This document shows positions 37,269-50,879 of a DNA stretch of 64,000 nt, in pieces. Position numbers and translations under genes: made by a program. Within the stretch, counting starts at the first letter, position 1. Each line of letters begins with the position of its first letter. The notes beneath the pieces were generated by a model. That model ran no database searches and was not told where the DNA came from. It worked only from the letters and a program-made list of their open reading frames with translations. Origin of the DNA: Dietzia sp. B32 (GTDB lineage Bacteria > Actinomycetota > Actinomycetes > Mycobacteriales > Mycobacteriaceae); NCBI RefSeq assembly GCF_024732245.1, contig NZ_CP093845.1, positions 3,532,087-3,596,086 of the forward strand, written 5' to 3'.

Positions 37269-38252
37269 GTGAGTACCGCGGAACAGGGGGCGACGACCCC
37301 CCGGGCGGACGCCCCGGAACCCATCAAGGCGGTGCCCCTGCGGCATCCGTGGCGATGGGTCTCGGCGACGGTCGTCCTGGTGCTGGTGTTCCTCTTCATC
37401 TGGGGCGCGGCGACCAATCCGGCCTACGGCTGGAGCACGTACGGGAGGTATCTGTTCGACACCCGGTTCGGCATGGCGGTGTTCTACACCATCGCGCTCA
37501 CCCTGCTGTCGATGATCCTCGCCGTCGTCCTGGGCGTCATCCTCTCGGTGATGCGGATGAGCAGCAACCCGGTCCTCAAGGCCGTGGCGTGGGTGTACCT
37601 GTGGATCTTCCGCGGGACCCCGATCTACGTGCAGCTGCTGTTCTGGGGCCTGATCTTCACCCTGTACCGCCAGGTCCAGTTCGGGATCCCGTTCACCGAC
37701 TTCCAGATCGTCCGCTTCGACGACACGATGGTGCTGTACTCGGCCTTCTGGTTGGCCGTGGTGGGACTCGCCATGAACGAGGCCGCGTACATGGCGGAGA
37801 TCGTCCGCGCCGGCATCTCCTCGGTGCCGGAGGGGCAGGCCGAGGCCTCGACCGCACTGGGCATGACGTGGGGCCAGACCATGCGGCGGACGATCCTGCC
37901 GCAGGCCATGCGGGTCATCATCCCCCCGACCGGCAACGAGTTCATCTCGATGCTCAAGACCACCTCGCTCGTCGTCGCCATCCCCTTCTCCGGTGAGCTG
38001 TACGGGCAGGCGCGCGACATCTCGGGCGTCAACTTCCAGCCCATCCCGTTGCTACTGGTGGCCGCCACCTGGTATCTGGTCATCACCAGCGTCCTCATGG
38101 TGGGCCAGCACTACCTCGAGAAGCGCTTCTCCCGCGGCGCCACCCGTCAGCTCACGGGTCGACAGCTGCGTGCACTCGCCGATGCGGACGGGCTCACCCC
38201 GTCCTCTCTCGCCGCGGCCCGGGCCGCCGACCCGTCCGGAGGCAAGCCATGA
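37269..38252 (+). CDS. Amino acid ABC transporter permease (HisM/GlnP type)
   Basis: A 327-residue inner-membrane subunit. A first helix at about 35-55 precedes the His/Glu/Gln/Arg-type permease domain, with the EAA loop near residues 195-215 ([23 protein letters not shown]). The GTG start lies 11 bp after the binding protein. The C-terminal 40 residues form a soluble tail. It forms the membrane pore of the importer with the following ATPase. Confidence 0.94.
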
Positions 38253-39010
38253 CGCCGATGGTCAGGGCCGAGCAGGTCTGTAAGAATTTCGGGTCACTCC
38301 GCGTCCTCAAGGGCATCGACCTCGAGGTCGCCGCTGGTGAGGTGCTGTGCCTGGTCGGGCCCTCCGGCTCGGGCAAGTCCACGTTCCTCCGGTGCATCAA
38401 CCACCTGGAGAGGGTCGACGCGGGCAGGCTCTACGTCGACGGGGAGCTCGTGGGATACCGCGAGAAGGGCGACAAGCTCTACGAGATCTCCCCGAAGCAG
38501 GCCGCGCGCCAGCGCCGGGACATCGGCATGGTGTTCCAGCACTTCAACCTCTTCCTCCACCGCACCGCCCTCGAGAACGTGATCGAGGCACCGATGCTGG
38601 TGAAGGGTCAGTCACGTTCGGACGCCACCGAGCGGGCCCGGGAGCTGCTCGCCAAGGTCGGCCTCGCAGCGAAGGCCGACACCTATCCGGCTCAGTTGTC
38701 CGGCGGGCAGCAGCAGCGTGTCGCTATCGCCCGCGCCCTGGCGATGGACCCCAAGCTGATGCTGTTCGACGAGCCCACCTCCGCGCTTGATCCCGAACTG
38801 GTCGGAGAGGTCCTGGGCGTGATGCGGGATCTCGCGGACGCGGGGATGACCATGGTCGTGGTCACCCACGAGATGGGCTTCGCCCGCGAGGTCGCCGACA
38901 CCGTGGCGTTCATGGACGACGGCGTCGTGGTGGAATCCGGCAAGCCGGCCGACGTGCTCAGGTCGCCGTCCCACCAGCGTACGAAGGACTTCCTGTCGAA
39001 GATCCTCTGA
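38249..39010 (+). CDS. Amino acid ABC transporter ATPase (GlnQ type)
   Basis: A 253-residue ATPase with Walker [10 protein letters not shown], signature [15 protein letters not shown], Walker [13 protein letters not shown] and the switch histidine in VVVTHEMGF. It overlaps the permease by 4 bp. The unit is closed by a 14-bp stem terminator. The importer is inserted between polA and rpsA, which are adjacent in M. tuberculosis. Confidence 0.96.
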
Positions 39011-39989: not shown

Positions 39990-41468
39990 ATGACCACCAA
40001 CACCACGTCCCCGCAGGTAGCCGTCAACGACATCGGCTCTGCTGAGGACTTCCTCGCCGCCATCGACGCCACGATCAAGTACTTCAACGATGGCGACATC
40101 GTCGAGGGCACGATCGTCAAGGTCGATCGTGATGAGGTCCTGCTCGACATCGGCTACAAGACCGAGGGTGTCATCCCCTCGCGCGAGCTCTCCATCAAGC
40201 ACGATGTCGACCCGGGTGAGGTCGTCGAGGTGGGCGATGAGGTCGAGGCCCTGGTCCTGACCAAGGAGGACAAGGACGGCCGTCTGATCCTGTCCAAGAA
40301 GCGCGCCCAGTACGAGCGCGCCTGGGGCACGATCGAGGAGCTCAAGGAGAAGGACGAGGCCGTCAAGGGCACCGTCATCGAGGTCGTCAAGGGCGGCCTG
40401 ATCCTCGACATCGGTCTCCGTGGCTTCCTCCCCGCCTCGCTGGTGGAGATGCGTCGCGTGCGCGACCTCCTGCCCTACGTGGGCCAGGAGCTCGAGGCCA
40501 AGATCATCGAGCTGGACAAGAACCGCAACAACGTCGTGCTCTCGCGTCGTGCGTGGCTCGAGCAGACCCAGTCGGCCGTGCGCTCCGAGTTCCTGCACCA
40601 GCTGCAGAAGGGCCAGGTCCGCAAGGGCGTCGTCTCCTCGATCGTCAACTTCGGTGCGTTCGTCGACCTCGGCGGCGTCGACGGTCTGGTCCACGTCTCC
40701 GAGCTGTCTTGGAAGCACATCGATCACCCGTCCGAGGTCGTCGAGGTGGGCCAGGAGGTCACCGTCGAGGTCCTCGACGTCGACTTGGACCGCGAGCGCG
40801 TCTCGCTGTCGCTCAAGGCCACGCAGGAGGATCCGTGGCGGCACTTCGCCCGGACCCACGCGATCGGTCAGATCGTCCCGGGCAAGGTCACCAAGCTCGT
40901 GCCGTTCGGCGCCTTCGTGCGCGTCGACGAGGGCATCGAGGGCCTCGTCCACATCTCCGAGCTGGCCGAGCGCCACGTCGAGGTCCCGGACCAGGTCGTC
41001 ACGGTCAACGACGACGCCATGGTCAAGGTCATCGACATCGACCTCGACCGTCGTCGTATCTCGCTCTCGCTGAAGCAGGCGGACGAGGACTACACGGAGG
41101 AGTTCGACCCGTCGAAGTACGGCATGGCCGACAGCTACGACGAGGCCGGCAACTACATCTTCCCCGAGGGCTTCGATCCCGAGACCAACGAGTGGCTCGA
41201 GGGTTTCGAGAAGCAGCGCGAGGAGTGGGAGAACCGCTACGCGGAGGCCGAGCGTCGCCACAAGATGCACACGGCCCAGATCGAGAAGGGTCGGGCCGCT
41301 GCGGCGGAGGCCGCCGAGGCCGCTCCGACCAACTACTCGTCGGAGTCCACCCCGTCGTCGCGTCCCGCTGCTGCGGCCGACGCCGCTCCGGCGGAGACCA
41401 CCGGCGGTTCGCTGGCCTCGGACGAGCAGCTGGCCGCCCTGCGGGCCAAGCTCGCCGGTGGTGAGTGA
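39990..41468 (+). CDS. rpsA: 30S ribosomal protein S1
   Basis: A 492-residue RNA-binding ribosomal protein with four S1/OB domains at about residues 35-105, 120-188, 208-277 and 293-363. E. coli S1 has six; four is the actinobacterial form. The C-terminal 100 residues are charged then Ala/Ser-rich and probably disordered, the region where mycobacterial RpsA has been linked to pyrazinoic acid binding. Highly biased codon use fits strong expression. Confidence 0.98.
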   Translation: MTTNTTSPQVAVNDIGSAEDFLAAIDATIKYFNDGDIVEGTIVKVDRDEVLLDIGYKTEGVIPSRELSIKHDVDPGEVVEVGDEVEALVLTKEDKDGRLILSKKRAQYERAWGTIEELKEKDEAVKGTVIEVVKGGLILDIGLRGFLPASLVEMRRVRDLLPYVGQELEAKIIELDKNRNNVVLSRRAWLEQTQSAVRSEFLHQLQKGQVRKGVVSSIVNFGAFVDLGGVDGLVHVSELSWKHIDHPSEVVEVGQEVTVEVLDVDLDRERVSLSLKATQEDPWRHFARTHAIGQIVPGKVTKLVPFGAFVRVDEGIEGLVHISELAERHVEVPDQVVTVNDDAMVKVIDIDLDRRRISLSLKQADEDYTEEFDPSKYGMADSYDEAGNYIFPEGFDPETNEWLEGFEKQREEWENRYAEAERRHKMHTAQIEKGRAAAAEAAEAAPTNYSSESTPSSRPAAAADAAPAETTGGSLASDEQLAALRAKLAGGE

Positions 41469-41510: not shown

Positions 41511-41557
41511 CGGCCCCGGCCGCGCGCACCACCACATGGTGGGCGCGGCCGGGGCCG
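41511..41557 (+). terminator. Terminator of rpsA
   Basis: A perfect 15-bp stem (41511-41525 pairing with 41543-41557) encloses a short inner hairpin around CCAC/GTGG and is followed by a modest T-containing stretch. Confidence 0.85.
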
Positions 41558-41855: not shown

Positions 41856-43454
41856 TTAGCGGCCCGGCGGCTCGGCGATCGGCTCCGGGGCCGCGGGCAT
41901 GACCTCGGAGGCATCCTCCAGACGCTGTTCGTCGATCACGCCCTCGTCATCGATGGCCCCGGCCTCCACGGCGTCGCTCACTCTGACGCGCGACTGCACT
42001 TCGGTGTGCGTGTTCGTGTCGGGGGCGTTGAAGTTGAACTGGCTGAGATCGGTGCGCAGGAAGAAGACGTTGTACGCATCCCAGGTGGACAGAGTGAAAA
42101 ACAGGTGGGAGCCGTCTGAGGTGATCGAGTCCGGGTGGATCATCGGGGCGTAGGCGTTGGGGAACATACGGCGATCGACGAGCGTCTGGGGCGCAGACCA
42201 GGGGCCCTCCGGTGCGCTCGCCACCCGCATCGAGACGACTCCCGACGCGGTGGACGTCAGTGATATGTACTTGTTCAGGTACTCGTTGTAGGCGACCGAC
42301 AACTCCTCGACCGGCGCCGGCAGGATCACCTCGCTCGCGCTCGGGTCGGACTCCCAGGTGGAACCTCCCTTGAACCACTGGTAAGCGCCGGGGTTCTCGA
42401 CCTGATCGATCGGCACTCGCGCGAGCGTGGCCGGCCCGCGACGCCCGGACGGTGTCAGATACTCGTACAGATAGCCGTCCTTCTCGAGGAATGCGCTCAT
42501 CTGCATCCCGTACCAGAGGCTGCTGTCGGCCTCGGGCAGGTCGTCGGCGTCGGGTTCGAACTCGACGTCGTTGTTCCAGCCGGTGAACTCGGTGACCCGG
42601 CGCATCGAGTTGGCGAGGATCTTCCACGTGTTGCCGTCGTCATCCGACTTCACCAGCGCGGAGTAGTTGGTGTTCCAGCCGCCCGGGGCGTTCCAGTCGC
42701 GGACCGACATGACGCGCATGTACAGGGCGTCGCCGGTGGCGTTGTTCGGGTCAGGGAGGCTGATCGCGGCGGTGGGGATCACCGTTACCTCGCCGATGCC
42801 GTTCGGCTGATGGGCGCCCTGAACCAACGCCGTGGCGTAGCCGGTAAGTCCGCTCGGTCGTGCACCAGTGATCTTGAGGCCGTTTTCGGGCGGTCCACTC
42901 TGGGCAGTGAGCATGACATTGGAGCGCCAGTCGTTGCCTGACGGGGTGCAGTCGCCGAAGGTGTCGCCGAACAGCACCATCGTCTCGTCGCCGTGCTCGA
43001 ACATGATCCCGAGGTCGGTCCCGTAGATGTTGTATGCGGAATCGGTATTTGCAGGGCTGGTGGGGCCGGTGATCAACTGAAGCACTGACGTGGCGCCCTT
43101 GAGGACGGGGATCGTGCCCTGGTCCCCGGTGATCCATCGCGGGAAGTCGCGTACGGAGGAGGCAGCGGTACCGGCGACGGAATTGGCCGCGTTCGCGAGC
43201 GAGCCCGTCGCGAGGTTGAGGCCAAGCGATCCGGGAGGGAAGTTGCCGAAAAAGTTGTTGCACGGCCCGCTCTCGAAGCCGCTGGAACCCGACGATCCAG
43301 CGGACCCTGACGAACCAGGGACCTCCGCGGAGCCCGCCGTGCCGAGTGAGCCCGAGGACTGGGCGTTCGCGGTGGCGGGAACAAGAAGGGAGGTGGCCAG
43401 GATCGTCACGGGGACCGTGAGGAGCACTGAGGTTCTTGCTGAGTGTCGAACCAT
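41856..43454 (-). CDS. Secreted DUF4185 protein, putative endo-D-arabinanase, paralogue 1
   Basis: A 532-residue exported protein with a signal peptide (about 1-31, ending ANA). A Gly/Ser-rich low-complexity linker (about 32-60) precedes a DUF4185 beta-propeller domain at about 110-480. Conserved blocks shared with the two paralogues nearby are [51 protein letters not shown] and [14 protein letters not shown]. Characterised DUF4185 enzymes (CAZy GH183) cut D-arabinan of mycobacterial arabinogalactan, so a role in remodelling the cell-wall arabinan is likely. The acidic Asp of GTDLG and FGDT are candidate catalytic residues (inference). The tail beyond 490 is acidic. It is divergent from coaE. 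Confidence 0.85.
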
Positions 43455-43517
43455 GCGTGCGACCTTATAGTTGCGTCGATGCGCTGTAAACATCCCGGGT
43501 TCACTTACACTCCTGGA

Positions 43518-44609
43518 ATGCTGATGGTGGGTCTGACCGGTGGGATCGGTGCCGGCAAGTCGACGGTGACGGCGGTGCTCGCGGAGGCGGGGGCGGTGAT
43601 CGTGGACGCGGACCTCATCGCCCGCGAAGTCGTCGAACCGGGATCCCCGGGTCTGGCGATGCTGGTCGCCGAGTTCGGTGAGGACATCCTGGGGCCCGAC
43701 GGCGCGCTCGACCGCGCGGCCCTCGCCGCCCGCGCCTTCGTCGATGCCGACCGGACCGCGGCCCTCAACGCCATCACCCATCCGCTCATCGGCGAGCGGA
43801 CGGCGGAGCTGTTCGGCTCGGCCCCGGAGGACGCGATCGTCGTACACGACATGCCGCTGCTGGTAGAGGGCGGGATGACGCCCGGTTACCACCTGGTGAT
43901 CGTCGTGGACACCCCGGCGGAGATCCGTCTCCGGCGCCTTGTGGAGTTCCGGGGGATGCCGGAGGACGATGCCCGGGCCCGTATGGCGCGGCAGGCGACC
44001 GATGAGGCCCGGCGGGCCGTCGCCGACGTGCTGATCGACAACTCCGGGGATCGACAGACGGTCGTGGACCTGACCCGTGCCCTGGTCGAGATCCGGCTGG
44101 ATCCGTTCGAACACAATCTGCGCACCGGGACCCCGGTGGTGGGTGATCGCACCGTCGTGCCGTTCCGTCCGGAATGGGCGGGGGAGGCGGAGAGGGCGTG
44201 TGCCCGGTTGCGTCACGTGGTGGGGGAGATCGCGACCAGGATCGACCATGTCGGTCCGACCGCGGTCGAGGGGCTGGACGCCCCCGACGTCATCGACCTC
44301 CAGGTGACGGTCCGCGACGCCGCGGCGGTGGAGGCGGCCTTGACCACGCTCACCGGGGCCGGCTACGTACGCGACCGGTCCAGCGAACGCCCGTTGTTGC
44401 ACTGGTGCGATCCCGCGCGTCCTCTGGAGGTCTCGATTCTCGCCGAGGACGACCCCGAGCACGAGTTCTCGCTTCTCATAGCGGAGGCGATCGGCGCGGA
44501 CTCCGCCGCCCGAGCCGAGTACTCGGAGATCCTCCGTCGGGCGGATCGCGAGGAGACCCGGCAGTGGGAACGCACCCTGAGTGAGGCCCTGCTGCGCGGC
44601 CGGTTGTGA
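43518..44609 (+). CDS. coaE: Dephospho-CoA kinase with C-terminal UPF0157 domain
   Basis: A 363-residue protein. The kinase domain (about 1-200) has the P-loop [12 protein letters not shown] and the substrate motif [11 protein letters not shown]; it makes CoA from dephospho-CoA. The C-terminal region (about 205-360) is a GrpB/UPF0157 domain of the nucleotidyltransferase fold ([23 protein letters not shown]), the fusion typical of mycobacterial CoaE. The ATG at 43518 is used; ATG at 43524 would also work. rpsA-coaE-uvrB order is conserved in mycobacteria, but here coaE is flanked by DUF4185 genes on the opposite strand. Confidence 0.96.
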
Positions 44610-44647
44610 CGACCGCGGGCGGGTCCGAGACCCGCCCGCCGCCGCGC

Positions 44648-46204
44648 TCACGCCGTCGGGACCACTCCGTCCACCAGCTCGGAAACCGGCACCCGGCGGA
44701 TGACCTCGGTCTCCACGGGCTGTGCGGCCGCTCGGCGCAGGTTCGGGTTGGGGAACACCTCCGACAGGCGGGTGCGTACGAGGAAGACGTTGTACGCGTT
44801 CCACGTGGTGACGAGGTAGTAGAGGTCCTCACCCTGCGCCCACGGGTGCATGAACGCCCCGTACACGCCCGGCAGCACGGAGTAGTCCACCAGGACCGTC
44901 GCCGAGCTCCACGGCCCCTCGGGCCGGTCGGCCGTACGCATGACCACCGAGTTGTAGCCCTGCGAGTACATGGCCGTGTACTTGCCGAGGTACTCGTTGT
45001 ACATGGTCGAGATCTCGCTCGCCGGAGCTGGCAGGACCCGCTCCGCCGCGCCGATGTCCGAGACCCACTCCGAACCGTCCCAGTACTCGTAGTCCGTCGG
45101 GTCGAGGACACCTGCGGTGGGCGGGGTGCTCGAGGCGTCGAGCTCGCCCGCGGTCGGGGAACCGGCGAGTGGGACGCGGGCGACGATCGCCGAGCCCTGC
45201 CGCCCGGACGGGGTGAGGTACTCGTAGAGATGCGAGTCCGCCTTGAGGAACGAGCTCATCTGGGCGCCCCGCCAGGCGGAGTCCACGGTCGGGGCCCCTT
45301 CGCCGAGGGGGATGGTGTCGGTGATGGGGCGGGCCATCGCCGGCACGGCGGTCCAGTTCTCGCCGTTGTCCGTCGAGTACGCCATCCCCGAGTAGTTGGT
45401 GGTCCACGTTCCCGGTTGGCCCCAGTGGGCCACGGACATGTACCGCAGGTACTGGACACCGTCGACCGAGATGCCCGCGGTGGGGATGATGGTGACCTCA
45501 CCGGGCAGCCCGGATCGCGGGACGAGCGACTTGGCGAGTCCGTCGGTGCCCACGGCCGCCGAGTCGACGGAGATGCCGTCGGTCAGGTCCGTGTCAGCGG
45601 ATCGGAACAGGACGTTCGATCGCCACTGGTTGCCGGGCACGGTGCAGTCGCCCATGGTGTCGCCGAAGGCCATGAGGACCTCCGGATGGTCGGGATCGCC
45701 GTTGTCCCACATGATGCCGAGGTCCGTTCCGGCCACCCCGAATCTGTTGACGGAGTCGCCGGGGCTCGTGGGGCCGGTGACCAGCTGTTCGAAGCGGGTG
45801 GGGCCGCGGAGGACGGGCACCGTGCCCTCCTCGCCCGTGATCCACGGCGGCATCCCGTAGACCGAGCCGATCATCGGGTCGAGGGAGCCGGACAGTCCGT
45901 TGCCGAGCGAACCGGTCTCCAACTGCTGGACCAGCGATCCTGAGCGGTCCGCGGATCCGAGGGCGCGGGAGGCGGAACCGAGCGACCCGGATTCTCCGGT
46001 CGAACCGAGTGAGCCGAGAGAGCCGGTGGCCATTCCGGCCCCGGTCCGGTTCTCGAGCAGGGAGCCGAAGTTGCCGAACATCTCACTGCACGGGCCGGCC
46101 GAGGCGGTGCCGGCACCGATCGTGCCGATGGTGACGACCGACGCGGCCGTGGTCATCGTCGCCGCGACCACCGTGCTGAGGAGACGAGTGAGAGGGCGGG
46201 ACAT
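44648..46204 (-). CDS. Secreted DUF4185 protein, putative endo-D-arabinanase, paralogue 2
   Basis: A 518-residue exported protein with a signal peptide (about 1-36, TASAG). A long GSLGS-type low-complexity linker (about 55-110) precedes the DUF4185 propeller (about 118-490) with [59 protein letters not shown] and WNAYNVFLVRTRLS. The ATG follows a GGAGG site located in the end of the upstream paralogue gene, one base after whose stop it begins, so the two are co-translated. Closest in character to paralogue 3. Confidence 0.86.
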   Translation of the reverse strand: MSRPLTRLLSTVVAATMTTAASVVTIGTIGAGTASAGPCSEMFGNFGSLLENRTGAGMATGSLGSLGSTGESGSLGSASRALGSADRSGSLVQQLETGSLGNGLSGSLDPMIGSVYGMPPWITGEEGTVPVLRGPTRFEQLVTGPTSPGDSVNRFGVAGTDLGIMWDNGDPDHPEVLMAFGDTMGDCTVPGNQWRSNVLFRSADTDLTDGISVDSAAVGTDGLAKSLVPRSGLPGEVTIIPTAGISVDGVQYLRYMSVAHWGQPGTWTTNYSGMAYSTDNGENWTAVPAMARPITDTIPLGEGAPTVDSAWRGAQMSSFLKADSHLYEYLTPSGRQGSAIVARVPLAGSPTAGELDASSTPPTAGVLDPTDYEYWDGSEWVSDIGAAERVLPAPASEISTMYNEYLGKYTAMYSQGYNSVVMRTADRPEGPWSSATVLVDYSVLPGVYGAFMHPWAQGEDLYYLVTTWNAYNVFLVRTRLSEVFPNPNLRRAAAQPVETEVIRRVPVSELVDGVVPTA

Positions 46205-46205
46205 G

Positions 46206-47624
46206 TCATGCCTCCGGGATGGGGAGTCGATCGACGAGGACGGTCTCTCCGGTGTCCGCCGGATCGGGGGTGTTGCGGGTCCAGCTGTCATCGGACGTCT
46301 GCATCCGCGCCCGGGCGTCGGGCAGGGTCCTCGTGGGGATCTGGGTCAGGTCGGTCCTCATGAGGAAGACGTTGTAGGCGTCCCACGTGGACATGGTGAA
46401 GTACAGGTCCTCGCCGCGGGTCTCCACGGCCGGACTCCACGGGTGGACGAAGGCGCCGTAGAGGGTGGGGACGTGCTGGTACGAGAGGAGGATGTCCTCA
46501 CCGGACCACGGCCCCCACGGAGTGGCCGCCTGGCTCATGACGATGTTGTTGGCGCGGTTGTTGTACAGCGCGATGAATCGGCCCAGATGCTCGCTCCAGG
46601 ACACGGACAACTCACTCACCGACGTCCCGTTCGGGGCGCCGAGCACCGGGACGGCGTCGCGGTGATCGACGACCCAGTCGCTGCCGTCCCAGAACCGGTA
46701 GGCCGCCATCTCCTCGATCTGTGCCTCGGGAACCCGCGCCAGCCGCGCGGACCCGCTGCGGCCCGATGGCGTGAGGTACTCGTAGACGAACCCGTCGTGC
46801 TTGACGAACGCGCTCATCTGCCCGGCGACGTGGGTCGTCGACTCCGCGCCCAGGTCGGCCGGGAGAGGCATCGGCGCGGTTCCCCGGCGTGCGGTGCCGC
46901 GTACGGGACGCCAGTTCTCACCGTTGTCCGTCGACCGGGCGAGCGCGGAGTAGTTGGTGGTCCACTCGCCGGGGTCGCCCCAGCGCTCCACCGACATGTA
47001 GCGCAGGTACTGGGTGCCGCCCACCTCGACGCCGGCGGTCGGGATCACCGTGGTCTCGCCGGGTTGGCCGGTGCGGGGGAGGATCGACTTGGCCATCCCG
47101 GGCCGTTCCATCGGTGCGTCGGTGACGCGCATCCCGTCGGTGAGGGTGCGGTCGTCGGACCGGAAGAGGATGTTGCTGCGCCACTCGTCATCGGGCGCGG
47201 TGCAGTCGCCCATCGTGTCGCCGAGGGCCATCATCACCTGCGGACGGGCGGAGTCGCCGTTGTCCCACAGGATCCCCAGGTCAGTGCCGGTGATGCCGAA
47301 CCGGTCGACCGTGTCGTTGGGGCTGGTCGGCCCCGTGAGCAGTTCGACCGTGGTGGTGCGGCCCTGGAGGACCGGGATGTATCCCCGTTCACCGTTGGCC
47401 CACGGGGTGGCAGGCTCTGGTGCGGACCCGCCCAGGGAGCCCGAGAGGGATCCCGATCCCGCGCCCGCGCCGGCCGGGGGCCACGGGTCACAGGGCGCGG
47501 CCACGGCGATCGGAGCGAGAAGGGTGAGAGCCCCCGCCGCGAGTGAGGCGGCGGTGACCGCCGTGATCGGCCGACGCACGCCGTGTGGGCAGGCGGTACG
47601 ACGACGAAGGGAGCTGCGGGCCAC
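46206..47624 (-). CDS. Secreted DUF4185 protein, putative endo-D-arabinanase, paralogue 3
   Basis: A 472-residue exported protein. The GTG at 47624 after a GGAGATCACC site gives a basic n-region (RRR) and signal peptide to about residue 43; a shorter GTG start is possible. A GSGSLSGSLGG linker precedes the DUF4185 propeller (about 70-420) with [54 protein letters not shown] and WDAYNVFLMRTDL. It is the first gene of a two-gene operon with paralogue 2 and divergent from uvrB. Probable role: cleavage of D-arabinan in the arabinogalactan layer. Confidence 0.85.
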   Translation of the reverse strand: MARSSLRRRTACPHGVRRPITAVTAASLAAGALTLLAPIAVAAPCDPWPPAGAGAGSGSLSGSLGGSAPEPATPWANGERGYIPVLQGRTTTVELLTGPTSPNDTVDRFGITGTDLGILWDNGDSARPQVMMALGDTMGDCTAPDDEWRSNILFRSDDRTLTDGMRVTDAPMERPGMAKSILPRTGQPGETTVIPTAGVEVGGTQYLRYMSVERWGDPGEWTTNYSALARSTDNGENWRPVRGTARRGTAPMPLPADLGAESTTHVAGQMSAFVKHDGFVYEYLTPSGRSGSARLARVPEAQIEEMAAYRFWDGSDWVVDHRDAVPVLGAPNGTSVSELSVSWSEHLGRFIALYNNRANNIVMSQAATPWGPWSGEDILLSYQHVPTLYGAFVHPWSPAVETRGEDLYFTMSTWDAYNVFLMRTDLTQIPTRTLPDARARMQTSDDSWTRNTPDPADTGETVLVDRLPIPEA

Positions 47625-47750: not shown

Positions 47751-49880
47751 ATGGCATTCGCGACCGAGATCCCCGACGACGGGGTCCCCGCCGACCCGAC
47801 AGTGCTCTCCTATTCGGAATTCCGACCGATCGGCGACGTCGAACGGAGCACGACGCGCTTCGAGGTGGTGAGCGAATTCACCCCGTCGGGCGATCAGCCC
47901 ACCGCGATCGCGGAGCTGACCGAGCGCCTGGCACGGGGAGAGCGCGACATCGTCCTCCTGGGTGCGACGGGCACCGGCAAGTCGGCGACCACCGCGTGGC
48001 TCATCGAGAAGGTGCAGCGGCCGACCCTGGTGATGGCGCCCAACAAGACGCTCGCCGCGCAGCTCGCCAACGAGTTGCGCGAGATGCTGCCCAACAACGC
48101 GGTCGAGTACTTCGTCTCCTATTACGACTATTACCAACCTGAGGCGTACATCGCCCAGACGGACACCTTCATCGAGAAGGACTCGTCCATCAACGATGAC
48201 GTGGAGAGGCTTCGGCACTCCGCGACTTCGTCGCTGCTGTCCAGGCGTGACGTCGTCGTCGTCAGCTCCGTCTCGTGCATCTACGGACTCGGCACCCCCC
48301 AGTCGTACCTGGACAGGTCGGTGGCCCTGTCCATCGGGCAGGAGGTCGACCGTGACCAGCTCCTCCGACTACTGGTGGATGTCCAGTACGAACGCAACGA
48401 CGTGTCCATGACCCGCGGCACGTTCCGCGCCAAGGGCGACACCGTCGACATCATCCCGACCTACGAGGAGCTCGCCGTCCGCATCGAGTTCTTCGGCGAC
48501 GAGATCGATGCGCTGTACTACATCCACCCGCTGACGGGCGACGTCGTCCGCAGGGTCGACGAGGTGCGCATCTTCCCGGCCACCCACTACGTCGCCGGTC
48601 CCGAGAGGATGGCCAAGGCGATCGCCTCCATCGAGGCCGAGCTGGAGGAGAGGCTCGCCGAGTTGGAGAAGCAGGGCAAACTGCTCGAAGCGCAGCGGCT
48701 GCGGATGAGGACCTCCTACGATATCGAGATGATGCAACAGGTGGGCTTCTGCTCCGGCATCGAGAACTACTCGCGGCACATCGACGGGCGGCCGGCGGGA
48801 AGCTCCCCGGCCACGCTCATCGACTACTTCCCCGAGGACTTCCTCACGGTGATCGACGAGTCCCACGTGACCGTGCCGCAGATCGGCGCCATGTACGAGG
48901 GCGACGCATCCCGCAAGCGCAATCTCGTCGACTTCGGATTCCGTCTACCATCCGCACTCGACAACCGTCCGCTGACCTGGGAGGAGTTCTCGGGCAGGGT
49001 GGGGCAGACCGTATACCTGTCCGCCACGCCGGGGCCCTACGAGATGGGCCGCGCGGGCGGCGAGTTCGTCGAGCAGGTGATCCGGCCGACCGGCCTCGTC
49101 GACCCGAAGATCGTGGTCAAACCCACCAAGGGCCAGATCGATGACCTGATCGGCGAGATCCGTCAGCGCGCCGAGCGCGACGAGAGGGTACTGGTCACCA
49201 CGCTGACCAAGAAGATGTCCGAGGACCTCACGGACTACCTGCTCGAACTGGGGATCCGCGTGCGGTACCTCCACTCGGAGATCGACACCCTCCAGCGGGT
49301 GGAGCTGCTCCGGGATCTCCGGCGCGGAGAGTACGACGTCCTGGTCGGCATCAACCTGCTCCGGGAGGGACTTGACCTGCCAGAGGTCTCGCTCGTGGCG
49401 ATCCTGGACGCCGACAAGCAGGGTTTCCTCCGCTCGGCCACCTCGCTCATCCAGACCATCGGGCGTGCGGCCCGCAACGTCTCCGGTGAGGTCCACATGT
49501 ATGCGGACTCGGTCACCGAGGCCATGCGGCAGGCCATCGACGAGACCGATCGCAGGCGTGAGAAGCAGGTCGCGTACAACACCGAGCACGGTATAGACCC
49601 GCAGCCGCTCCGCAGGAAGATCGCCGACATCCTCGACCGGGTCGGAGAGGAACGCGGGGACGACGCGGATCCCAAGGACCGACCGGAGCTCGTGGGCGCC
49701 CGGGCGGCCGACGGGTCGGCGCGGCCCCGCAAGGAGCTCGAGAAGCTCATCGAGGAGATGACCGAGCAGATGATGTCCGCGGCCACGGACCTGCGGTTCG
49801 AACTGGCGGGCCGATTGCGCGACGAGATCGCGGAGTTGCGCAGGGAACTCAAGGGGATGCGTGAGGCCGGGATCGACTGA
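47751..49880 (+). CDS. uvrB: Excinuclease ABC subunit B
   Basis: A 709-residue nucleotide-excision-repair helicase-like subunit. Walker [12 protein letters not shown], the damage-verification hairpin [21 protein letters not shown]-like [11 protein letters not shown], motif VI GRAARN and a C-terminal UVR motif for UvrC contact are present. The ATG at 47751 was chosen over an upstream in-frame start because it restores the usual N terminus. No SOS box was recognised in front. Confidence 0.98.
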
Positions 49881-50450: not shown

Positions 50451-50879
50451 TCAGTCGCAGAGGTGGGTCCGGCTCGCATCGACGATCGCCCGACCCACCT
50501 CTGCGGTGTCGAGGTCCGGGGTCTGGGCTGCGATCGCACTGGTGAGCGGACGGATCCGGTCGAGGATCGTCTCGGTGTCCGCCCCGTCGGCGATCCCCCT
50601 GCAGATTCCGACGCCCACCTCGACGGTGGTGGCCGCGGTCATCTCGGTGGGGAGGCCGAAGCCGGAAAGATCGGCGAGGAACGCCTGCTCCTCGTCGGTC
50701 CGTGTGTCGATCCGGTCCTCCGGGGGGAGCTGTTCGGAGGACTCGGATCCGAATCCGGATGCGGCGACGGTGGACATCGTGCCGGCGGGATCCTCGGCAC
50801 CGGTGCCGCACGCGCCGGCCACGGCCGCGAGGGCGACGAGGGCCGACGCCCCCAGCACGCGTGGTCTGCTGTCGGTCAT
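50451..50879 (-). CDS. DUF732-type small lipoprotein
   Basis: A 142-residue predicted lipoprotein with a hydrophobic signal and lipobox ending at C24 (VAGAC). A mature domain at about 62-142 resembles DUF732 (AFLADLSGFGLPTEM and VGVGICRGIADG, plus a terminal cysteine that could pair with the central one). DUF732 proteins are common exported proteins of mycolata with no known function. The ATG overlaps the stop of the helicase gene by 4 bp, so it is the second gene of that operon. Confidence 0.82.
   Translation of the reverse strand: MTDSRPRVLGASALVALAAVAGACGTGAEDPAGTMSTVAASGFGSESSEQLPPEDRIDTRTDEEQAFLADLSGFGLPTEMTAATTVEVGVGICRGIADGADTETILDRIRPLTSAIAAQTPDLDTAEVGRAIVDASRTHLCD

Follow-up and report, generated by a model that had tools for sequence, protein, structure and literature searches.

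Three coaE-linked GH183 genes of Dietzia sp. B32 and their probable role as exported arabinanases acting on the cell's own wall

Introduction

With the recently discovered glycoside hydrolases of family GH183 (DUF4185, Pfam PF13810), mycolate bacteria can cleave the arabinan on which their outer membrane is borne. A described member, EndoMA1 of Microbacterium arabinogalactanolyticum, is an endo-alpha-D-arabinanase with the solved structures 8hhv and 8ic1. D33 is its nucleophile, D51 its acid/base and E243 a third essential carboxylate, and activity is almost lost in the D33N, D51N and E243A/Q variants (PMC10509167). A GH183 enzyme of Dysgonomonas is retaining and two of its Asp mutants are inactive, but unlike in EndoMA1, its Glu mutant is broadly active (PMC10115798). 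Mycobacterial GH183 enzymes cut arabinogalactan (AG) or lipoarabinomannan (LAM): LAM but not AG is a substrate of MSMEG_2107, a homologue of AraH1, and Rv3707c accepts both (PMC10115798). Here we analyzed a stretch of 64,000 nucleotides from Dietzia sp. B32 (the window; contig NZ_CP093845.1, positions 3,532,087 to 3,596,086), in which three genes for DUF4185 proteins, D1, D2 and D3, lie around coaE.

AG and a mycolic-acid layer are stated for Dietzia (PMC9599347). Our literature search on DUF4185, GH183 and Corynebacterium endo-D-arabinanases, whose scope was mostly papers outside subscription, had among the papers listed none whose title concerned Dietzia, and the excerpt of a paper on Dietzia envelope regulation makes no mention of coaE or a DUF. 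We consider it probable that D1, D2 and D3 are exported, retaining GH183 endo-D-arabinanases that act mainly on the wall arabinan of the cell itself and form a set expanded in Dietzia. The family itself was already known; what is new is the tripling, a corrected history of the copies, their ranking, a cysteine pair and the link drawn from their Gly-Ser tracts.

Results

D1, D2 and D3 have the catalytic residues of GH183

The locus reads rpsA> <D1 coaE> <D2 <D3 uvrB>, with D1, D2 and D3 all on the minus strand. The three minus-strand genes around coaE and their product lengths had been described in the original prediction made from the window's letters and were confirmed here (Table 1). In the PF13810 hidden Markov model search, D1, D2 and D3 scored 298, 330 and 353 bits over the full length of the domain, far above the cut-off of 39.5. 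NCBIfam provided no useful name, with one 16-bit match for D1 (cut-off, 600) and none for D2 and D3. When a profile of the three proteins was compared with solved structures at E values up to 0.01, only 8hhv (3e-87) and 8ic1 (2e-86) were retrieved. Identity is 42% between D1 and D2, 40% between D1 and D3 and 49% between D2 and D3, and the blocks GTDLGI, GDTx-type and WxAYNVFxxRT are invariant among them.

Alignment to EndoMA1 placed the equivalents of D33, D51 and E243 at D147, D164 and E384 in D1, at D161, D182 and E397 in D2 and at D115, D136 and E338 in D3. The Asp, Asp, Glu triad was kept in all aligned rows of D1 (n=9), D2 (n=34) and D3 (n=17). In all seven groups printed, every row had both the nucleophile and the acid/base Asp, as well as Arg at the R198 position; the third carboxylate was replaced by Gly in one Corynebacterium row. 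W138 was likewise kept in all D1, D2 and D3 rows. Y293, which the D1, D2 and D3 of the window also match, was kept except for a gap in 8 D2 rows, probably where loci end. The original prediction had named the absence of these catalytic acids from a structure-based alignment as its refutation. In our alignment, which is based on sequence, the carboxylates of EndoMA1 are matched in all three proteins, and GH183 membership is well supported.

The stop of D3 lies 1 nt from the start of D2, and GGAGG, within the 3' end of D3, lies 6 nt 5' of the D2 ATG. Thus, D3 and D2 form an operon, as had been proposed, and their translation is probably coupled.

Linkage to coaE is shared with Corynebacterium

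Sixteen Dietzia-type loci (L005 to L020) were compared; they were found via the GH183 search, and the counts are therefore biased to presence. D2 was present in 16/16. Among the D2 rows, some are fragments at the ends of short loci; the same locus may come from two collections, and L008 and L009 are near-duplicates. D3 was present in 12/16, fragmentary in 1 (L017) and absent in 3. D1 was present in 8/16, fragmentary in 2 (L014 and L019) and absent in 4; the contig ended in the other 2.

In Corynebacterium (the genus of G218), 50/81 genomes had a PF13810 match. Among the best-scoring 18 of 30 Corynebacterium loci, 17 had coaE, rpsA or uvrB within 1.5 kb. In 8 of these the GH183 gene adjoined rpsA or lay on the side of coaE that faces rpsA, and in 9 it lay between coaE and uvrB. 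None of the remaining 12 loci had any of the three genes within 1.5 kb. The named Corynebacterium locus L045 showed the same coaE-type linkage. No nearby coaE or uvrB was seen in 59 other named loci from Rhodococcus, Rhodococcoides, Prescottella, Williamsia, Gordonia, Nocardia and Tomitella, 4 of which had a short rpsA-like match (46 to 50%) that we read as other S1 proteins, nor in 30 further loci of the order, which had short flanks. Genome G335, with a single PF13810 match and no coaE match, was uninformative on coaE-linked copies. Linkage of GH183 to coaE is thus common to Dietzia and Corynebacterium. The original prediction had taken the three genes for lineage-specific insertions and had suggested a comparison of synteny across Dietzia, Gordonia and Corynebacterium. 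This reading is not supported in that form: the linkage itself extends to Corynebacterium and was not seen in the Gordonia loci compared, and what seems specific to Dietzia is the expansion to three copies.

For phylogeny, 181 of 221 frames were kept after removal of those with a summed score below 200, a match starting after model position 140, a domain shorter than 280 aa or an identical domain. A tree was built from 92 hand-picked rows, including EndoMA1 and every third row of the Rhodococcus and further-order groups. D1, D2 and D3 formed one clade together with the lone copy that G350 has between coaE and uvrB (Shimodaira-Hasegawa-like approximate likelihood ratio test [SH-aLRT], 96), and the Corynebacterium rows formed a separate one (99). 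Within the former, D1 grouped with D2 (95) and D3 with G350 (93); a D1+D2+D3 clade without G350 was not rejected (approximately unbiased test P value [p-AU], 0.07).

Orthology of D1 with the 8 rpsA-side Corynebacterium copies was also considered, and that clade was rejected (p-AU, 6e-7). Under this model, their similar position is thus not due to orthology.

This history is most simply read as the multiplication, within Dietzia, of one ancestral gene linked to coaE; the slot on the rpsA side would have been filled independently in each of the two genera. Evidence for this history is moderate, since the tree was quick and has long branches.

All three copies are under purifying selection

The ratio of nonsynonymous to synonymous substitution rates (dN/dS) was computed pairwise against three Dietzia relatives. 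It was 0.18 to 0.29 for D1, 0.13 to 0.25 for D2 and 0.20 to 0.33 for D3, with lower values for coaE (0.07 to 0.12) and uvrB (0.03 to 0.05). All three copies are clearly under purifying selection. D1 has the longest stem branch of the three (1.14, versus 0.29 for D2 and 0.27 for D3).

The genomic context favors a role on the cell's own wall

The genome, a single contig of 3.73 Mb, has three Emb-type arabinosyltransferase genes. GH172 (DUF2961), which serves as an exo partner where arabinan is utilized, was found in 0/23 Dietzia genomes, including that of strain B32, by a search that matched in 4/61 genomes; a separate search of the B32 genome had no match either, nor did its controls there. The GH116 (DUF608) family was not found in the B32 genome, in a search whose controls matched in 3/14 cases, 2 of them over the cut-off. 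PF13810 was matched in 118/249 genomes of the order (111 unmatched genomes were not displayed) and, among those displayed, in 40/41 other genomes of the same family, with 1 to 7 matches per matched genome. The near-universal presence of GH183 in the family, the three Emb genes and the failure to find GH172 and GH116 together favor a housekeeping wall role over feeding. The Emb genes and the two negative searches also lend indirect support to the predicted use on the cell's own D-arabinan, and D1, D2 and D3 would very probably trim the arabinan of the bacterium's own wall.

A fourth PF13810 gene lies about 1.1 Mb away, outside the window (L081:7745-8935; G000:C1:2499744-2500934). Its 397-aa product shows no visible signal peptide, and there is little room upstream (the open frame has 414 aa). 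It is more distant, its best solved relative being 8an0, a "putative secreted protein" (5e-17), and it adjoins a DUF4921 gene. Four GH183 copies per genome are not unusual. Near this gene, L081:11231-12727 and L081:5257-6129 encode exported-looking proteins with many GSL-type repeats and no Pfam family.

A cysteine pair may link the N-terminal segment and the catalytic loop

D1, D2 and D3 share two cysteines, one in the N-terminal segment, close to the mature N terminus, and one five residues past the acid/base Asp. Both were present in all counted rows of D1 (9/9), D2 (31/31), D3 (17/17) and G350 (1/1), rows with fewer than 40 aa before the domain or with a weak hydrophobic stretch being left out. 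In Corynebacterium, both were found in 9/9 coaE-uvrB rows, in the 1/1 row without synteny and in 1/8 rpsA-side rows; the Rhodococcus group had both in 46/48, and the further rows of the order had both in 13/20 and not in the other 7. The remaining 7 rpsA-side and 2 Rhodococcus-group rows fell outside the search expression; their loop Cys is present by alignment or reading of the sequence. No Cys of this kind occurs in the EndoMA1 domain. From the conserved columns and their co-occurrence we infer a disulfide by which the N-terminal segment would be strapped onto the catalytic loop.

Gly-Ser tracts recur on other putatively exported proteins

Between the signal peptide, assigned by eye rather than with a predictor, and the domain, D1, D2 and D3 have Gly-Ser-rich tracts, which by hand-set bounds span 85, 93 and 41 residues. 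The D2 tract contains seven GSL units in seven different codon spellings and is thus not a simple DNA repeat; it is mostly conserved in sequence as well as in composition. Many Rhodococcus-group rows have similar tracts, and lengths differ between orthologues. In 12 readable rows of group g2 (22 rows of the order were printed), the equivalent segment is Pro-rich, with a Gly+Ser (G+S) fraction of 0.09 to 0.15, and is reminiscent of Rv3707c, in which a proline-rich region has also been described.

A plain excess of GSLGS at the DNA level was considered and rejected, as GGNTCNCTNGGNTCN had 17 matches in the B32 genome versus 16 for the reversed control.

Only the kind of gene hit may be informative. 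Read in frame, D2 accounts for 3 of the 17 matches, and 10 more are spread over seven further genes. These comprise two of PF00756, one for a PhoX phosphatase that has an RR signal and a C-terminal GSLGS tract, and four for exported-looking proteins with no Pfam family over the cut-off. Of the 4 others, as judged by eye, one fell in a ligase-like protein, one in an alpha/beta hydrolase, one in a short and doubtful frame and one in the wrong frame of the PhoX gene. The two PF00756 genes (L178 and L180; G000:C1:2078750-2080079) are adjacent, both carry GSLGS tracts shortly after the signal peptide, and one ends in GSLGS. The PF00756 protein in L180 matches PS1, Cmt1 and antigen 85 and is clearly mycoloyltransferase-like.

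At gene ends, GSLGS had 16 matches in 12/23 Dietzia genomes versus 7 for the reversed control. The 16 pattern sites (L195 to L210) were the ones inspected, and all end real-looking frames of 248 to 505 residues, which we grouped by eye into 6 with the PhoX ending, 5 of a small exported-type family, 1 mycoloyltransferase (in the B32 genome) and 4 others. The B32 genome has two such ends (G000:C1:1641027-1641044 and 2079030-2079047). A C-terminal GSLGS may be an envelope tail of Dietzia. In a literature search on GSLGS, none of the papers listed (20 of 35) was relevant by title.

Layout of the locus

D1 lies between rpsA and coaE and is divergent from coaE, the two starts being 63 nt apart; D2 is convergent with coaE, and D3 is divergent from uvrB. 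The only long frames between rpsA and uvrB are the GH183 genes and coaE. CoaE has a C-terminal GrpB domain, and Corynebacterium loci match it over about 180 to 200 residues only. A scan for promoters and terminators found none. By eye, a long, G+C-rich inverted repeat without a T run lies directly 3' of rpsA (41512-41556) and is perhaps a terminator of another type. Past uvrB, a small DUF732 protein is encoded on the minus strand (50454-50879).

Table 1. Features of the coaE locus, in window coordinates
Feature	Position	Strand	Evidence
rpsA, left border of the locus	39990-41468	+	NF005911, 945 bits
D1, secreted GH183 (DUF4185) protein, 532 aa	41856-43454	-	PF13810, E 9.2e-89; phmmer to 8hhv, E 4.9e-49
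D1 Gly-Ser-rich tract, aa 31-115, holds Cys65	43110-43364	-	39% G+S vs 17% from domain start
coaE, dephospho-CoA kinase with C-terminal GrpB domain	43518-44609	+	PF01121, PF04229, NF002879
D2, secreted GH183 protein, 518 aa, gene 2 of D3-D2 operon	44648-46204	-	PF13810, E 1.8e-98
D2 Cys187, 5 residues after Asp182; putative partner Cys39	45644-45646	-	Conserved column and co-occurrence
D2 Gly-Ser-Leu tract, aa 37-129, holds Cys39	45818-46096	-	40% G+S vs 18%
D3 stop/D2 start junction (GGAGG, TGA, 1 nt, ATG)	46195-46220	-	
D3, secreted GH183 protein, 472 aa, GTG start, gene 1 of operon	46206-47624	-	PF13810, E 1.6e-105
D3 short Gly-Ser tract, aa 43-83, holds Cys45	47376-47498	-	34% G+S vs 16%
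Equivalents of the Cys pair: D1 Cys65/Cys169, D3 Cys45/Cys141		-	Codon places, alignment
uvrB (right border), with ATG start picked by eye	47751-49880	+	TIGR00631, 1073 bits

Discussion

In the reading that we propose, D1, D2 and D3 would be exported, retaining enzymes that cleave alpha-D-arabinofuranosyl bonds inside the chain, with the Asp of GTDLGI as nucleophile, the Asp of GDTxGDC as acid/base and a third Glu. Their main target would be the cell's own AG or LAM, when the wall grows, divides or is turned over. Expansion of the set would have taken place within Dietzia, starting from one copy linked to coaE, as Corynebacterium also has. D2 is the most constant of the copies and D3 is its operon partner; D1 has diverged, and several relatives lack it or have it in broken form. 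Of this reading, the analysis establishes family membership, the catalytic residues, a conserved genomic context, purifying selection and the presence of Emb genes; activity, substrate, timing and any division of labour are inferences.

Several points weigh against this proposal. The active-site geometry of all three is taken from a sequence alignment, and the position of L292 differs among the copies (A, V and L). The three cannot be assigned to AraH1 or AraH2 from our tree, which holds no named mycobacterial sequence, and several of the GH172-negative Dietzia genomes are only 64 to 88% complete. D1 is absent or fragmentary in 6 of the 14 loci in which it could be judged, and is thus dispensable in those relatives; moreover, Trp38 of EndoMA1 is Phe in 9/9 D1 rows. 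One copy, most likely D1, could no longer be an arabinanase and instead have a binding or regulatory function or another substrate. Its long stem, Tyr220 replaced by Trp in 9/9 rows and Gln128 replaced by Met in 8/9 (Leu in the copy of the window) point the same way, and the long stem, the later conservation and the Phe would fit a changed, if unproven, role. The different linkage preferences put forward in the original prediction are likewise hypothetical. However, the three carboxylates, W138, R198 and Y293 are kept in 9/9 D1 rows, and D1 evolves under a dN/dS well below 1, so that we regard a loss of arabinanase function as unlikely. We give still less weight to the idea that the enzymes digest the arabinan of other mycolate bacteria for feeding or competition, with use of the products. 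GH183 enzymes do act in such gene clusters in M. arabinogalactanolyticum and Dysgonomonas gadei (PMC10509167, PMC10115798), and an ATP-binding cassette transporter, of amino-acid type by eye, lies beyond rpsA at 37269-39010. But neither GH172, in any of the 23 Dietzia genomes searched, nor GH116, in that of B32, was found, no long frame was seen in the rpsA-uvrB interval apart from the GH183 genes and coaE, and GH183 is near-universal in the family.

As for the tracts, we lean toward plain flexible spacers that would give the enzymes reach through the wall without a lipid anchor. Their variable length, the Pro-rich counterparts in g2 and the DNA pattern count close to that of its control are consistent with this, whereas the largely conserved sequence of the D2 tract and the presence of GSLGS on a mycoloyltransferase and other exported proteins speak against it. 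For C. glutamicum, O-mycoloylation has been reported at Ser residues of exported proteins, which include mycoloyltransferases and secreted hydrolases, in stretches that are flexible and enriched in Gly, Ala and Ser but share no strict motif (PMC11066868). The metabolic probes used for mapping such proteins have been questioned, and MytC, one of the transferases, has been shown to be selective for chains that are beta-hydroxylated (PMC11927696). The tracts of D1, D2 and D3 likewise place Ser in Gly/Ala/Ser-rich regions that would be flexible and exported, and by this analogy are candidates for lipid anchoring, no more. It is conceivable, if rather doubtful, that the GSL tracts are multi-site O-mycoloylation acceptors and part of an envelope code shared with the mycoloyltransferase and with the C-terminal GSLGS of PhoX-like and other exported proteins. 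On GH183 they would hold the arabinanase on the mycomembrane, and the disulfide would fasten the same N-terminal segment to the loop with the acid/base Asp. If so, the enzymes would be tethered by lipid where mycolate and arabinan meet, and through the disulfide their activity could depend on the envelope's redox state.

With three copies in one locus of Dietzia and relatives that lack one or two of them, a division of labour among the putative arabinanases can be tested by deletions. Moreover, the paired Cys and the Gly-Ser-Leu tails offer testable ideas on how a wall-cutting enzyme is placed and held.

Compared with known systems, D1, D2 and D3 resemble EndoMA1 over the length of its catalytic domain, in the three carboxylates and in W138, R198 and Y293. 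EndoMA1 in addition has a putative carbohydrate-binding module (CBM) domain and belongs to a cluster for degradation that also encodes GH172 and GH116 (PMC10509167). The Dietzia proteins differ from it by their Gly-Ser tract at the N terminus and by the loop Cys, and no degradation cluster was found around them. AraH1 (Rv1754c) and AraH2 (Rv3707c) are likewise GH183 proteins of mycolate bacteria with the same class of wall polymer, but the N-terminal region of Rv3707c is proline-rich, unlike the Dietzia tracts (PMC10115798). Among 6 further loci of the order, the flanking frames read by eye showed no decisive AraH1 or AraH2 neighbor. With the O-mycoloylated proteins of C. glutamicum, D1, D2 and D3 share the features of secreted hydrolases and of Ser in Gly/Ala/Ser-rich surroundings; Table 1 of that report names no GH183 or DUF4185 protein among its characterized entries (PMC11066868). 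The coaE-linked GH183 proteins of Corynebacterium (L045, L112 to L127 and L129) share with those of Dietzia the family, the coaE, rpsA or uvrB neighbor and the N-terminal and loop Cys, but differ in that one coaE-linked copy was seen per genome, in a clade of its own.

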